From contig JANYBG010000036.1 in the NCBI GenBank assembly GCA_025360865.1, positions 1 to 57,811 on the forward strand: a stretch of 57,811 bases of DNA, written 5' to 3'. Under the pieces are notes generated by a model that worked only from the letters and a program-made list of their open reading frames with translations, ran no database searches and was not told where the DNA came from. Below are positions 5,295 to 56,030 of the stretch, piece by piece. This stretch comes from Pseudomonadota bacterium (GTDB taxonomy: Bacteria; Pseudomonadota; Gammaproteobacteria; Steroidobacterales; Steroidobacteraceae). The translations under genes and the position numbers were made by a program. How positions within the stretch are numbered: the first letter of the stretch is position 1; the number at the start of each line of letters is the position of its first letter.

Positions 5295-5324
5295 TTGACG
5301 GGCCTCCCGGGGCACGGCGATACT
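5295..5324 (+). promoter_or_regulatory. Predicted sigma70-type promoter of trp operon (TTGACG-N18-GATACT)
   Basis: -35 TTGACG at 5295-5300, -10 GATACT at 5319-5324, 18-nt spacer. Confidence 0.6.
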
Positions 5325-5330
5325 CAGGAC

Positions 5331-5384
5331 ATGGCGCACACACTCGTCAGCACGTCGCGTCTTTGGTGGTGGCGCTCTCCATAA
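5331..5384 (+). CDS. trpL: trp operon leader peptide MAHTLVSTSRLWWWRSP
   Basis: 17-codon ORF with three consecutive TGG codons at 5364-5372, directly upstream of an attenuator terminator and trpE. Confidence 0.88.
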   Translation: MAHTLVSTSRLWWWRSP

Positions 5385-5438
5385 CGGAGTGGGCCTGACG
5401 GTTAGCTGTTCTCGCGATTTAGAATTCAACGACACCTG

Positions 5439-5474
5439 AAACCCATCTCCGGATAACACCGGGATGGGTTTTTT
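5439..5474 (+). terminator. trp attenuator terminator (3:4 hairpin plus T-run)
   Basis: AAACCCATCTCCGG-ATAACA-CCGGGATGGGTTTTTT; alternative pairing with CGGAGTGGG at 5385-5393. Confidence 0.88.
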
Positions 5475-5497
5475 GTTGTGCGCGCGCTGGAGTCGAC

Positions 5498-6886
5498 TTG
5501 TTACAACCTGTCTTTGACATCGCTGGTGACCTCGACACGCCCGTGTCGGCGTTCATGAAGCTCGCCGCCTTCGCGCCGCGCTTCCTGCTCGAGAGCGTGG
5601 AAGGCGGCGAGCGGCTCGCCCGCTACTCGTTCGTCGGTTTTGGCGACGCTTTCGAGGTGCGCCTCGACGATGCGGGCCTTTGGAGTGGCGGTGTCCGGAC
5701 CGCCGCCCCGACCACCGGCGGCGAATTGCTACAGGCGTTGCGCGTCGCGCTTGGCCAGGCGCCCAAGCCCGAACCGCGCATCGCCGGAGTTCCGCTCGCG
5801 GGCGGCCTCGTGGGCTACGCCGCCTATGACATCGTGCGCTATTTCGAGCGCCTGCCGGCTCAGGCGGCGCGGCGTACCGGCGTGCCGGCACTGCACTACG
5901 TGGCGCCGCGCTCGATGCTGGTATTCGACCACCTCACCCGCGGGATCGCGCTGGTCCACGCGGGTTCCGAGGAGGAACGTCGCTCGCTGCGCAGGGAAGT
6001 CATCCGCGCATTGCGCGGTGGACTGCCGGCGCCCACGCGCCAGGGACACCACTCCCCCCCGTTCGCTGAATACGCGCGCGCCGAGTACCTGCGGGGGGTG
6101 CGTCGCACCCAGGAGTACATCGCCGCGGGAGATGTCTACCAGCTGGTGCTCGCGAGCCGCTTCCGCGGTCGACACGATCTTGAGCCGTTCCAGGCGTACC
6201 GGGCGCTGCGCCTCATCAACCCGTCTCCCTACATGTACTACTGCGCGCTTGGCGATGTCGCCGTGGTGGGCTCATCACCGGAGGCGCTCGTGAAGCTCAG
6301 CGGCCGCGAGGCGCAGCTGCGGCCCATCGCCGGCACGCGCCCGCGAAGTCCTGATCCGGCCACCGACCGCGCGCGCGCCGAGGAGCTGCTCGCCGACCCC
6401 AAGGAGAACGCCGAGCACGTCATGCTGGTCGATCTCGCGCGCAACGATCTCGGGCGCGTCGCCGGCGCCGGGAGCGTCCGGGTCGAGTCGTACCGCTCCA
6501 TCGAGCGTTACAGCCATGTCATGCACATGGTCAGCGGCGTGCGTGGCGAGCTCGCCGCGGGCAAGGATGCGTTCGACCTGTTCGCCGCCGCGTTTCCCGC
6601 CGGCACCCTGGTCGGCGCCCCCAAGGTGCGCGCCATGCAGATCATCGAGGAACTTGAACCGGTCAGCCGCGGCCTCTACGGAGGCACGGTGGGCTACTTC
6701 GGCGCGAGCGGTGACATGGACCATGCCATCACTATCCGCACTCTGGTGTTCAAGGGCGATGAGTACAGCTATCAGGCCGGCGCGGGCATTGTGGCCGACA
6801 GCGTGCCCGAGGTGGAGCATGACGAGGTGCTGGCCAAGAGCGCGGCCATGGTGCGCGCGCTGCAACTCGCGGAGGAGGGCCTGTGA
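5498..6886 (+). CDS. trpE: Anthranilate synthase component I
   Basis: Chorismate-binding motifs ([59 protein letters not shown]); TTG start per ORF track. Confidence 0.95.
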
Positions 6887-7512
6887 AGCCACGCCTGCTG
6901 CTGATCGACAACTATGACTCCTTCACCTACAACCTGGTGCAGGCCTTCCTGGTCCTGGGCGCGGAGGTGGACGTGTACCGCAATGACGCCCTGACACCTC
7001 AGCAGGCACTCGCGCTCGCACCGACGCACCTGTGCGTTTCCCCGGGCCCGGGCACCCCGTATGAGGCGGGCGTGTCCATGGACATGATCCGCGCGTTCGC
7101 CGGGGTGATTCCCGTGCTTGGCGTGTGCCTCGGGCATCAGGCGCTCGTGGAGGTGTTCGGAGGCAAGGTGGTGCGCGCGGACCGGCTGATGCACGGCAAG
7201 ACCTCGCTGATTCACCACGACGGACGCACGCTGTTCGCCGGACTGCCCGCACCCTGCGAGGTCGGGCGGTACCATTCACTCATCGCCGCTCCGGCCTCAA
7301 TCCCCGCTGAGCTGGAGGTGAGTGCGCGCACGGAGCAGGGCGAGATCATGGCCGTACGTCACCGCGAGCTGGTGGTCGAGGGTGTGCAGTTCCATCCCGA
7401 GAGCATCCTCACCCCGGACGGCCCGCGATTGATGGAAAACTTCCTGACGTACGCCACGGGGGCGCGCGCGCGTGCCGCGACTTCCGGGAGCGAGCATGTC
7501 ACCGCCGCGTGA
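6883..7512 (+). CDS. trpG: Anthranilate synthase component II (glutamine amidotransferase)
   Basis: [42 protein letters not shown]. Confidence 0.95.
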
Positions 7513-8557
7513 GCTGCTGCAGCAATTGATCCAGCGCCGCGACCTCACCGAAACGCAGGCGGCGGACTTGCTCGCGCAGCTGGCTGATCCGCAGCTGCCG
7601 ACGGCCATGGCGGGCGCCATCCTCGCGGCGCTCACCGCCAAGGGTGTGGTGGCGGATGAGGTGCGCGGATTCGCGCTGGCCCTGCGGCGGCTGTCGTTGC
7701 GGCCGGAACTTCCCGCGGGCCTGCGCGCCATCGACATCGTCGGTACCGGCGGCGATGCCTCGGGGAGCCTCAACATCTCCACCGGAACCGCGCTGCTAAC
7801 CGCCGCCTGTGGCCTGCCGGTCATCAAGCACGGCAATCGCTCGGTCTCCAGCCGCTGCGGCAGCGCGGACGTGCTCGAGGCCCTGGGGCTTTCCATCCCG
7901 CTGGATGGCCAGGCCGCCGGTGACTGCCTCCGGGCCACCGGCTTCACCTACCTCTTCGCGCCGCACTACCACCCGTCCATGCGCGCGATCTCGCCTATTC
8001 GCGCCGCCCTGGGTGTGCGCACGGTGTTCAACATCCTGGGCCCACTGGTGAACCCGGCACAGCCGCCGCTGCATCTGGTTGGCGCCTACAGCCTCGAGAT
8101 CGCGCGTCTCATCGCCGACACGTTCGCGGGGCTGCCTGGCGAGCGGGCCTTCGTGATTCATGGCGCGGAAGGCTGGGACGAGCCCACGCCCATTGGACCT
8201 TTCACCGTGTTCGACGTGCGGCCGGGCCAAGTGGCGACCCAGGTGCGCTCGCCCGCGGACTATGGCCTCGCCACCTGCGTCGCGGCGGATCTGGCTGGTG
8301 GCGACGCGCGGCACAACGCGCAGGCGCTGCGATCCGTGCTCCACGGCGCGGACCGCGGCGCCCACCGCGATTGCCTGCTGCTAGGCGCGGCGCTCGCGCT
8401 CGAAGTCGCAGGTCTGGTGGATTCCCCGCGCGCGGGAATCGCGCGCGCCGCGGCCGCCATCGACAGTGGCGCCGCGCGTCGTGTCGTGGATGCGCTCGAC
8501 GCCAGTCGCCAGGCCGCGGCGCCCGGCGCCGCCCCCTCCATGAGGAGCAAGCCGTGA
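7496..8557 (+). CDS. trpD: Anthranilate phosphoribosyltransferase
   Basis: [52 protein letters not shown]. Confidence 0.95.
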
Positions 8558-9375
8558 GCGGCGGATTCCTCGAGGAGATGGCCGCAGCGAGTGAGGCGCG
8601 CCTGCACGAGGCCCGGCGGCGCTGTTCGGAAGCGGCTTTGCGCGATCTGGTCGCCGCCTGTGGGCCTGCCCCGCGACTTCAACTCGACCCTTCCGGATTC
8701 GACATCATCGCGGAGCTGAAGCTGCGCTCCCCCGCCGCCGGCGCCTTGCGGGCGACGGATGAGAACATTCCCGACCGGGTGGACGCGTACGCGCACGGAG
8801 GTGCCGCGGCTGTGTCCGTGCTCACCGAGCCCAGCCGCTTCGACGGCGAGCTCGCGCACCTGGAGGTGGCCGCCCGCGCGCTGTCACCGCTGGGCGTGCC
8901 TGCCATGCGCAAGGATTTTCTCGTCGATCCGTACCAGGTTCTCGAGGGCCGGCGCGCCGGCGCTGGTGGCGTGCTTGTCATCCTGCGCATGCTCGCGCGG
9001 GAGCGTATCGATGCGCTGCTGGGCTGTGCGCGCGAGCAGGGAATGTTCGTGCTGCTCGAGGCCTTCGACGCGGCCGACATCCAACTGATGCATGAGCTGG
9101 TTGATTCGTACGGCGCCAGCATGGCGCTATTGGCCGGCATCAATTGCCGGGACCTGAGCACGCTGCAGGTCGTGCCGCGGCGGCTCCTCGAGCTCCTGCC
9201 GCTGCTGCCGACCCGGGTCCCCCGCGTGGCCGAGAGCGGCGTCGCCTCGCCGGCGGATGCGCGCGAGATCGCGGCCGCCGGCTACGAGATGGCGCTGATT
9301 GGCGGCGCGCTGATGCGCGGCGGGGATCCCCGGGCACTCCTCGCGGGGCTACTCGCCGCTGGCAGGGCCGTTTAG
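8554..9375 (+). CDS. trpC: Indole-3-glycerol phosphate synthase
   Basis: IIAELKLRSPAAGALR, VSVLTEPSRFDGELAHL, MRKDFLVDPYQV, VAESGVASPADAREIAAAGYEMALIGGALMR; GTG start overlapping trpD stop assumed. Confidence 0.93.
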   Translation: MSGGFLEEMAAASEARLHEARRRCSEAALRDLVAACGPAPRLQLDPSGFDIIAELKLRSPAAGALRATDENIPDRVDAYAHGGAAAVSVLTEPSRFDGELAHLEVAARALSPLGVPAMRKDFLVDPYQVLEGRRAGAGGVLVILRMLARERIDALLGCAREQGMFVLLEAFDAADIQLMHELVDSYGASMALLAGINCRDLSTLQVVPRRLLELLPLLPTRVPRVAESGVASPADAREIAAAGYEMALIGGALMRGGDPRALLAGLLAAGRAV

Positions 9376-9990
9376 ATGTGGATCAAGATCTGCGGACTTA
9401 CGACGCCTGAGGCGGTGAGCGCGGCGCTGGATGCTGAGGTGGATGCCGTGGGTTTCGTGTTTGCGCGATCATCGCGCCGGGTGACACCGGAGTTCGCCGC
9501 CCAGCTGGCTACGCCGGCTCGGGGCAAGACGCGCCGCGTCGCTGTCGTGCACCACCCGGTGCAGGCTGAGATCGACGAGATGCTCAGGGTGTTTTCCCCG
9601 GACGTACTGCAGGGCGATTGGGCTGAACTCGACGGGCTGCGCCTTCCGGTGGCCTTGGAGCGTCTGCCGGTCGTGCGTGCCATGAGCGCGGTGCCACCGG
9701 CGCTCCCGGGACGCATCCTGTTCGAGGGCGCGGTCAGTGGTGCCGGGATCACGGCGGACTGGGACGCGGCGGGCGTGCTGGCCCAGCGCACACAACTGGT
9801 CCTGGCCGGTGGCCTCGACAGCGGGAACGTCGGCGCGGCCGTCGCGGCCGTGCGCCCGTTCGGCGTGGATGTGTCTAGTGGTGTAGAAGAACGGCCGGGA
9901 TCGAAGAGTCCCGCCGAGATCATGAGATTCGTATTGGCCGCGCGCGCCGCGTTCGGCGCGCGCGCGTACCGGAAAGAGGATCGTCGATGA
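9376..9990 (+). CDS. trpF: Phosphoribosylanthranilate isomerase
   Basis: [70 protein letters not shown]. Confidence 0.94.
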
Positions 9991-11234
9991 ATGCACTTGC
10001 CAAACCCCTTGATAGTGCCCGGCTGCTGGCCGACCTGATCGCTGGCAAGTACCCGGATGCGCGCGGTCGCTTCGGGCCCTTCGGGGGGCGTTATGTCCCC
10101 GAGACGCTGATCCCGGCGGTCGAACGCCTAGAACGCGGCGTGCGTGAGCATCTTCATGCCAGCGAGTTCCAGGCCGAGTTCACCGGCCAGCTCAGAAGCT
10201 GGGTCGGCCGGCCGACGGCGCTCACCTTCGCGCAAAGACTCTCCGACCTGTGGGGCGCGAAGGTTTGGCTCAAGCGCGAGGACCTCGCGCACACCGGCGC
10301 GCACAAGATCACCAACGCCATCGGGCAGGCGCTGCTGGCCAAACGCCTCGGCGCCAAGCGCATAGTCGCTGAGACCGGCGCCGGTCAGCACGGCGTCGCC
10401 AGCGCCGCCGCATGCGCCCGGCTCGGCCTGCCATGCACGGTTTACATGGGCGCCATCGATATGGAGCGCCAGGCGCCCAACGTGGGCCGGATGCGCCTGC
10501 TCGGCGCGACCGTCGTGCCGGTCACCAGCGGCGACCAGACGTTACGCGCGGCCATCGACGAGGCGTTACGCGCCTGGGTGGCGGATCCGACCGAGACGTT
10601 CTACCTGCTCGGGTCCGCGGTCGGACCCCACCCGTACCCCTATCTCGTGCGCGAATTACAGGCGGTCATCGGCCGCGAGGCCCGTGAGCAGATCCTGGCC
10701 GCGAACGGTGCGCTGCCGGATGCGCTCATCGCCTGCGTAGGGGGCGGATCCAACTCCATCGGCGCATTCCACGCGTTCGTGCCGGATGCGACCGTCGAGA
10801 TCCTCGGCATCGAGGCCGGTGGGCGGGGCAGCGGACTGGGGGACAACGCGGCGACCGTCTCGCACGGCACCCCGGGGGTGCTGCACGGCACCTTTTCAAT
10901 GCTGCTGCAGAGCGATGACGGACAGATCCAGGAGACGTACTCCGTTTCGGCTGGACTGGACTACCCGGGCGTCGGTCCCGAACACGCTTTACTTGGCGCG
11001 ATCGGTCGCGTGAACTACACCACCGCCAGCGACGAGGAGGCCCTCGCCGCGGTCGAGACGCTAAGCAGGTATGAGGGCATCCTGCCGGCGCTCGAGAGCG
11101 CGCATGCGCTCGCCGGCGCTCAGCGCTGGGCCCGGGCCAACCCCGGGAAAACCATTCTCGTGTGTCTCTCGGGCCGGGGCGACAAGGACTTGGCGACGCT
11201 CCTTAAGATGCTCGTGAAGCCGGAGCGGGCATGA
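9987..11234 (+). CDS. trpB: Tryptophan synthase beta chain
   Basis: [66 protein letters not shown]. Confidence 0.97.
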
Positions 11235-12001
11235 GCCCGCGGGACCGCATCAGCCAGGCGATCCGCGCGGCCGCCGCTGGGGGCGAGCCGGCACTGGTGG
11301 CGTACCTCACCGCGGGGTACCCGCGGCGCGATAAGTTCCGCGAGCACGTGCGCGCTATCGCCTGCGCGGCGGATGTCGTGGAGGTGGGAGTCCCGTTCAC
11401 GGACCCGATGGCCGATGGCGTCACGATCCAGCGGGCGAGCCTCGCCGCGCTCTCCCAGGGGGTGAGCCTGCGTTGGATCCTGGCCGAGCTCGCGGAACTG
11501 AGCGACGTGAAGGCGCCGATACTGCTGATGAGCTATCTCAACCCGCTGCTGGCCTTCGGAGAGAGCGCGCTCGCAACAGCGGCGCGGCGCGCGAACGTTT
11601 CAGGCTTCATCGTGCCGGACCTGCCACTGGATGAGAGCAGCGAGCTTCGCGCCGCGCTTGATGAACAGCAGATCGCGCTAGTGCAGATGGTGACCCCGGT
11701 GACCGAGCCGGCGCGCATCAAGCAGCTGTGCGCGGGCAGCCAGGGTTTCGTCTACGCGGTCACCATGACCGGTACGACCGGCAAGAGCGTCGCCGTGCCT
11801 GACGAGGTCCTGCGCTACCTGGACGCCGTGCGCGCGATCGCTCCTGTGCCGGTATGCGCGGGCTTTGGTATCCGCGGCCCGGAGCAGGTGCGGCGGCTGC
11901 GCGGGCATGTCGATGGCGTGGTGGTGGGCTCGGCGCTGGTCGAGGTCCTCGAGCGGGGCGAGGACCCCGCGGCGTGGTTGCGCGAGCTGCGCCGGCCCTG
12001 A
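11231..12001 (+). CDS. trpA: Tryptophan synthase alpha chain
   Basis: [67 protein letters not shown]. Confidence 0.96.
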
Positions 12002-55915: not shown

Positions 55916-56030
55916 AATAAAAATGCCCCGGCGGTTTCGCTAGAAGCCGCCGGGGCCGACTAACCCGGTACAGTCTTGATGAACCGGGTTGACCCGCTCA
56001 GGGAGGGAAGCGGGGAGTGCTAGGCACTCG
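55916..56030 (-). ncRNA. Candidate structured small RNA with four tandem hairpins and a terminator, between polA and engB
   Basis: Minus-strand hairpins GAGTGC/GCACTC, CCCGCT/AGCGGG, AACCCGGT/ACCGGGTT and terminator GCCCCGGCGG/CCGCCGGGGC followed by ATTTTTATT. Confidence 0.55.

Follow-up and report, generated by a model that had tools for sequence, protein, structure and literature searches.

A conserved, probable trp attenuator with a predicted leaderless leader peptide upstream of trpEGDCFBA in an order of mostly uncultured gammaproteobacteria

The trpL-trpEDCBA region of Escherichia coli combines a Trp-codon leader peptide, competing 1:2, 2:3 and 3:4 pairings and a terminator before trpE, and it places the whole pathway in a single operon. 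The trpL of Sinorhizobium meliloti encodes a leaderless trp leader peptide (PMC7298713, PMC10117765), and in Streptomyces lividans trpE is preceded by trpL1, which encodes the leaderless WWW leader peptide MFAHSTRNWWWTAHPAAH (PMC8079986). We analysed a 57,811-nt stretch of DNA (the window) from a Steroidobacteraceae draft genome of 3.8 Mb in 257 contigs, and found a trp locus that shares the E. coli features above. We propose, with a probability of about 0.92, that the locus is a ribosome-mediated transcription attenuator of a complete trpEGDCFBA operon whose leader peptide is translated from a leaderless transcript. We found no report of a leaderless trpL for this gammaproteobacterial lineage in the open-access literature, which is weak evidence, as subscription papers lie mostly outside it. 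The promoter and leader contain the following features.

5295-5300, + strand: -35 box TTGACG of the trp promoter (consensus scan; promoter matches 9/12)
5319-5324, + strand: -10 box GATACT (consensus scan); the ATG starts 7 nt past its last base
5331-5384, + strand: trpL leader peptide ORF MAHTLVSTSRLWWWRSP, predicted leaderless (ATG 5331, TAA 5382-5384, 17 codons)
5364-5372, + strand: three consecutive Trp codons, the predicted ribosome stall site (from sequence; columns mostly near-invariant in a 56-sequence alignment)
5371-5380, + strand: segment 1, pairs with segment 2 (folding; 78.6% of cells paired, no covariation)
5385-5395, + strand: segment 2, partner of either segment 1 or segment 3; CGGAGTGGG is 5385-5393 (alignment, folding)
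5439-5452, + strand: segment 3, which serves both the antiterminator and, as its 5′ arm, the terminator; CCCATCTCCG is 5442-5451 (alignment)
5459-5474, + strand: segment 4 of the intrinsic terminator, with its T-run (pairing in 88.3% of cells; both sides changed at 8 pairs)

The first-pass annotation had called a WWW leader ORF at 5331-5384, and the sequence confirms it. Among 2000 shuffles of the trpE upstream region in the window, only 3 produced a short WWW ORF by chance. For comparison we used 72 loci, which are trpE upstream regions from same-genus and same-order genomes and from named records. A WW leader ORF was present in 71 of the 72 (shuffled mean 0.8) and a WWW leader ORF in 48 (shuffled 0), counts that do not measure prevalence because the loci were picked for having a leader candidate. 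A recognisable WW leader was not found at two loci with TrpE about 70% identical (L074 and L077) or at one order relative (L046). The in-frame starts TTG 5271 and TTG 5295 were ruled out, as the peptide 5′ of the ATG is unconserved among relatives and TTG 5295 is the -35 box itself. In one set of relatives (L008, L010, L011, L014-L016 and L018-L028), the leader ORF extends across segment 2 and adds a fourth Trp codon (PEWA); its stop codon therefore lies past segment 2.

The sigma-70-type promoter TTGACG-18-GATACT ends at 5324, 7 nt 5′ of the ATG, and transcription is therefore predicted to start at about 5331 (A5331). A fixed sigma-70 scorer placed the end of the best promoter 7-11 nt 5′ of the leader start codon at 69 of 72 loci; for a spacing of 6-10 nt the count was 64 of 72, compared to 2.2 on average and at most 6 in shuffles. 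When 48 relatives were anchored on the leader start codon, both promoter boxes fell at a near-fixed distance, and the base before the start codon was C in 41 of them, which fits a pyrimidine-purine start site. Complementarity to the anti-Shine-Dalgarno sequence across the 72 loci gave no Shine-Dalgarno signal before the leader ORF: pairing of -4 kcal/mol or lower occurred at 16 of 72 loci (40% in shuffles), compared to 55 of 69 of the same loci before trpE. As a control, the same scorer was run on E. coli trpL, where it placed the promoter 34 nt from the ATG; the Shine-Dalgarno sequence there is AAGGGT. Because the promoter spacing is conserved and the leader ORF lacks a Shine-Dalgarno signal, the leader peptide is probably translated from a leaderless mRNA with a predicted start. 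The first-pass annotation overlooked this promoter geometry.

The pattern TTGAC-ATACT-ATG has only two copies in the 3.8 Mb genome of the window. The other copy (L190 1-1744) precedes a 74-aa ORF that, judged by eye, looks like a small ribbon-helix-helix-like DNA-binding protein rather than a leader peptide.

The Rfam Trp_leader model (RF00513) matched the right region of the leader, at 18.1 bits (E = 1.4) compared to a gathering score of 41. The leader is not filed as a member of that family because it misses the gathering threshold, and we therefore examined conservation directly in relatives, scoring each helix on a 56-sequence leader alignment. Folding of the whole leader was more stable than that of dinucleotide shuffles (z = -2.3), and the isolated helices had calculated energies of -13.8 (1:2), -17.6 (2:3) and -21.3 kcal/mol (3:4). 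The proposed terminator, 5439-5471 with a six-T tail at 5469-5474, is present and covaries clearly: in the alignment, 88.3% of its cells are paired and 28 cells carry double changes, compared to 7.6 in shuffles. The proposed antiterminator, which pairs 5385-5393 with 5442-5451 and leaves U5446 as its one bulge, is likewise present, with 88.1% of cells paired compared to 38-61% when the helix was slid; its excess of double-change cells is modest (6 compared to 1.6 in shuffles, with double changes at 3 pairs). The proposed 1:2 hairpin held up in part, being stable and conserved in its pairing, yet its covariation did not exceed that of shuffles in the same alignment. Conservation of the Trp codons and alternative pairings in close relatives, the check named by the first-pass annotation, was found, and the attenuator reading survives it.

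These elements could act together as follows. RNA polymerase would begin at ATG 5331 or a few bases away, and the ribosome would bind straight onto the 5′ end of the transcript. When charged tRNA-Trp is low, the ribosome would stall at the Trp codons (5364-5372) and, with a Trp codon in its A site, would cover the RNA to about 5377-5383, hiding segment 1 and leaving segment 2 (5385-5393) free; the 2:3 helix would then form and transcription would proceed into trpE. When Trp is ample, the ribosome would reach TAA 5382 with its leading edge at about 5395, covering segment 2, and formation of the 3:4 terminator (5439-5474) would follow. The edge estimates are based on the usual ribosome footprint of about 16 nt past the first P-site base. 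In this scheme, we infer where transcription starts, that the leader is translated, how the ribosome is positioned and that charged tRNA-Trp regulates the operon.

We calculated how masking by the ribosome alters folding. For transcripts that end at 5451 or 5456, the 2:3 helix stayed at P = 0.99 when the RNA was masked to the edges of the stalled ribosome, and was lost when it was masked to the edge of the terminating ribosome at 5395. Once segment 4 was included, the full-length leader folded at equilibrium into the terminator in all masking cases. Therefore, the outcome would be settled co-transcriptionally, as in E. coli. When the ribosome was left out, the 2:3 helix was favoured over the 1:2 helix at equilibrium; consequently, default termination of an untranslated leader depends on the 1:2 helix forming first.

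Downstream of the leader, the operon comprises seven separate genes.

5498-6886, + strand: trpE, anthranilate synthase component I (TTG start, Shine-Dalgarno GGAG 5489-5492; best NCBIfam match TIGR00564 trpE_most, 476 bits, below the model cut-off of 517.7)
6883-7512, + strand: trpG (TIGR00566, above cut-off)
7496-8557, + strand: trpD (TIGR01245, above cut-off)
8578-9375, + strand: trpC, start codon approximate (TrpC models score best in NCBIfam, at 154 bits, below their cut-offs)
9376-9990, + strand: trpF (phosphoribosylanthranilate isomerase models score best in NCBIfam, at 130 bits, below their cut-offs)
9987-11234, + strand: trpB (TIGR00263, above cut-off)
11231-12001, + strand: trpA (TIGR00262, above cut-off)

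The start of trpE had been placed at 5498, which agrees with the TTG codon found behind GGAG, and all seven genes had been assigned to one attenuator. That assignment stands: the gene order trpEGDCFBA is kept in 20 of 20 relatives checked, and one attenuator would therefore control the whole pathway. The neighbouring ORF on the upstream side (5260-4673) lies on the opposite strand. Elsewhere in the window, 55917-56016 on the - strand matches the Rfam anti-hemB family (RF02837) at 52.7 bits, compared to a gathering score of 49.5, and is flanked by ORFs whose translations read as a YihA/EngB-type GTPase and DNA polymerase I. The genes for these two proteins flank the Spot 42 RNA gene of E. coli.

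No other reading accounts for the trpL locus nearly as well as ribosome-mediated attenuation. The hairpin at 5439-5474 could instead be a constitutive terminator, or that of an upstream gene, with the WWW ORF present by chance, and a terminator by itself would indeed fold well too. We give this almost no credence: the WW/WWW ORF and the 2:3 pairing are both conserved, every leader-bearing relative has the element between its trp promoter and trpE, and the upstream neighbour runs on the other strand. A different question is whether the same attenuator is transcribed from a promoter further upstream, giving it an ordinary 5′ UTR and a leader peptide that is not leaderless. The start at 5331 is a prediction and other promoters may exist upstream; however, such an arrangement is unlikely: 69 of 72 loci show the 7-11 nt spacing, SD-like sequence is depleted ahead of the start codon, and the same scanner recovers the 34-nt distance of E. 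coli trpL, which has an AAGGGT Shine-Dalgarno sequence.

It is very improbable that a TrpR repressor at this promoter controls the response to Trp, with attenuation playing a minor part. TrpR (PF01371) is present in 43 of 60 relatives but was not found in the genome of the window, which is 96% complete; since part of that genome is missing, absence is unproven. Palindromes such as AATGTACTAGCACGCTATTACATT lie upstream of trpR and suggest that trpR may regulate itself; a matrix built from them, with a few misregistered sites, found no trpR-type operator above shuffles at the trp promoters. Attenuation is thus the only Trp-specific control seen at this locus, because trpR was not found and no operator-like match occurs at the trp promoters. 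The architecture described by the first-pass annotation as classical ribosome-stalling attenuation is supported, as the ORF, Trp codons, alternative pairings and operon all hold in relatives.

A separate palindromic motif, of the GGGTATTGTATCCC / CCTATTGTAGG type and unlike the operator upstream of trpR, overlaps the -35 region upstream of trpL in one clade, to which the relatives with a leader ORF extended across segment 2 also belong. It was found at L008, L010-L016, L018-L028, L048, L055, L057 and L059, and has moved to between the -35 and -10 boxes in L012 and to upstream of the -35 box in L013. Among 31 genus members, trpR is carried by 18 of 20 genomes with the motif compared to 4 of 11 without it (Fisher P = 0.003, phylogeny not corrected). 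The motif is not present in the window.

Based on its sequence, the predicted attenuator is conserved across an order of mostly uncultured bacteria. Most of the named records with the closest TrpE are environmental MAGs that carry the label Proteobacteria or Gammaproteobacteria, and the labels Steroidobacteraceae, Nevskiaceae and Lysobacteraceae also occur. After a class-wide TrpE search we read loci from 28 other families, whose TrpE is of a different type (42-47% identical); most have no WW leader, and their W-rich ORFs mostly have no short promoter spacing. Consequently, the leaderless form could not be traced past the order. One record, L108 (Dehalococcoidia UBA1162), contains a WWW leader ORF 306 nt upstream of a trpE match, and its promoter, TTGACA-18-TATTAT, ends 10 nt before the leader ATG. 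It is possibly a leaderless trp leader far outside the order, or else a binning error.

The locus is well supported as a trp attenuator of ordinary mechanism, and its predicted leaderless start places it as a new member in the already known leaderless trpL subset. An order of mostly uncultured gammaproteobacteria would thereby join S. meliloti and S. lividans as organisms with a leaderless trpL, providing many natural replicates for asking why attenuator peptides start without a Shine-Dalgarno site. The approximately 70 aligned leaders could also yield a better covariance model than RF00513, which is sub-threshold here. By analogy to rnTrpL and peTrpL of S. meliloti, the terminated leader (about 140 nt) might be a small, abundant leaderless mRNA throughout this order of gammaproteobacteria, with its RNA or peptide acting in trans and its leaderless start-up under selection. 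We regard this as speculative and rather doubtful; if true, leaderless start-up would tie attenuation to conditions favouring 70S initiation.

The locus differs from each of the known systems it resembles. E. coli trpL has a Shine-Dalgarno sequence and a promoter at 34 nt, whereas the leader ORF in the window is predicted to be leaderless; E. coli also has fused pathway genes (trpC-F), whereas the window has seven separate genes and no trpR was found. In S. meliloti, trpL / rnTrpL lies ahead of trpE(G) and yields products that act in trans as well, whereas the trpL in the window precedes seven genes. S. lividans shares with the window a WWW leader peptide ahead of trpE, leaderless there and predicted to be so here, but it is an actinobacterium in which trpE is monocistronic.
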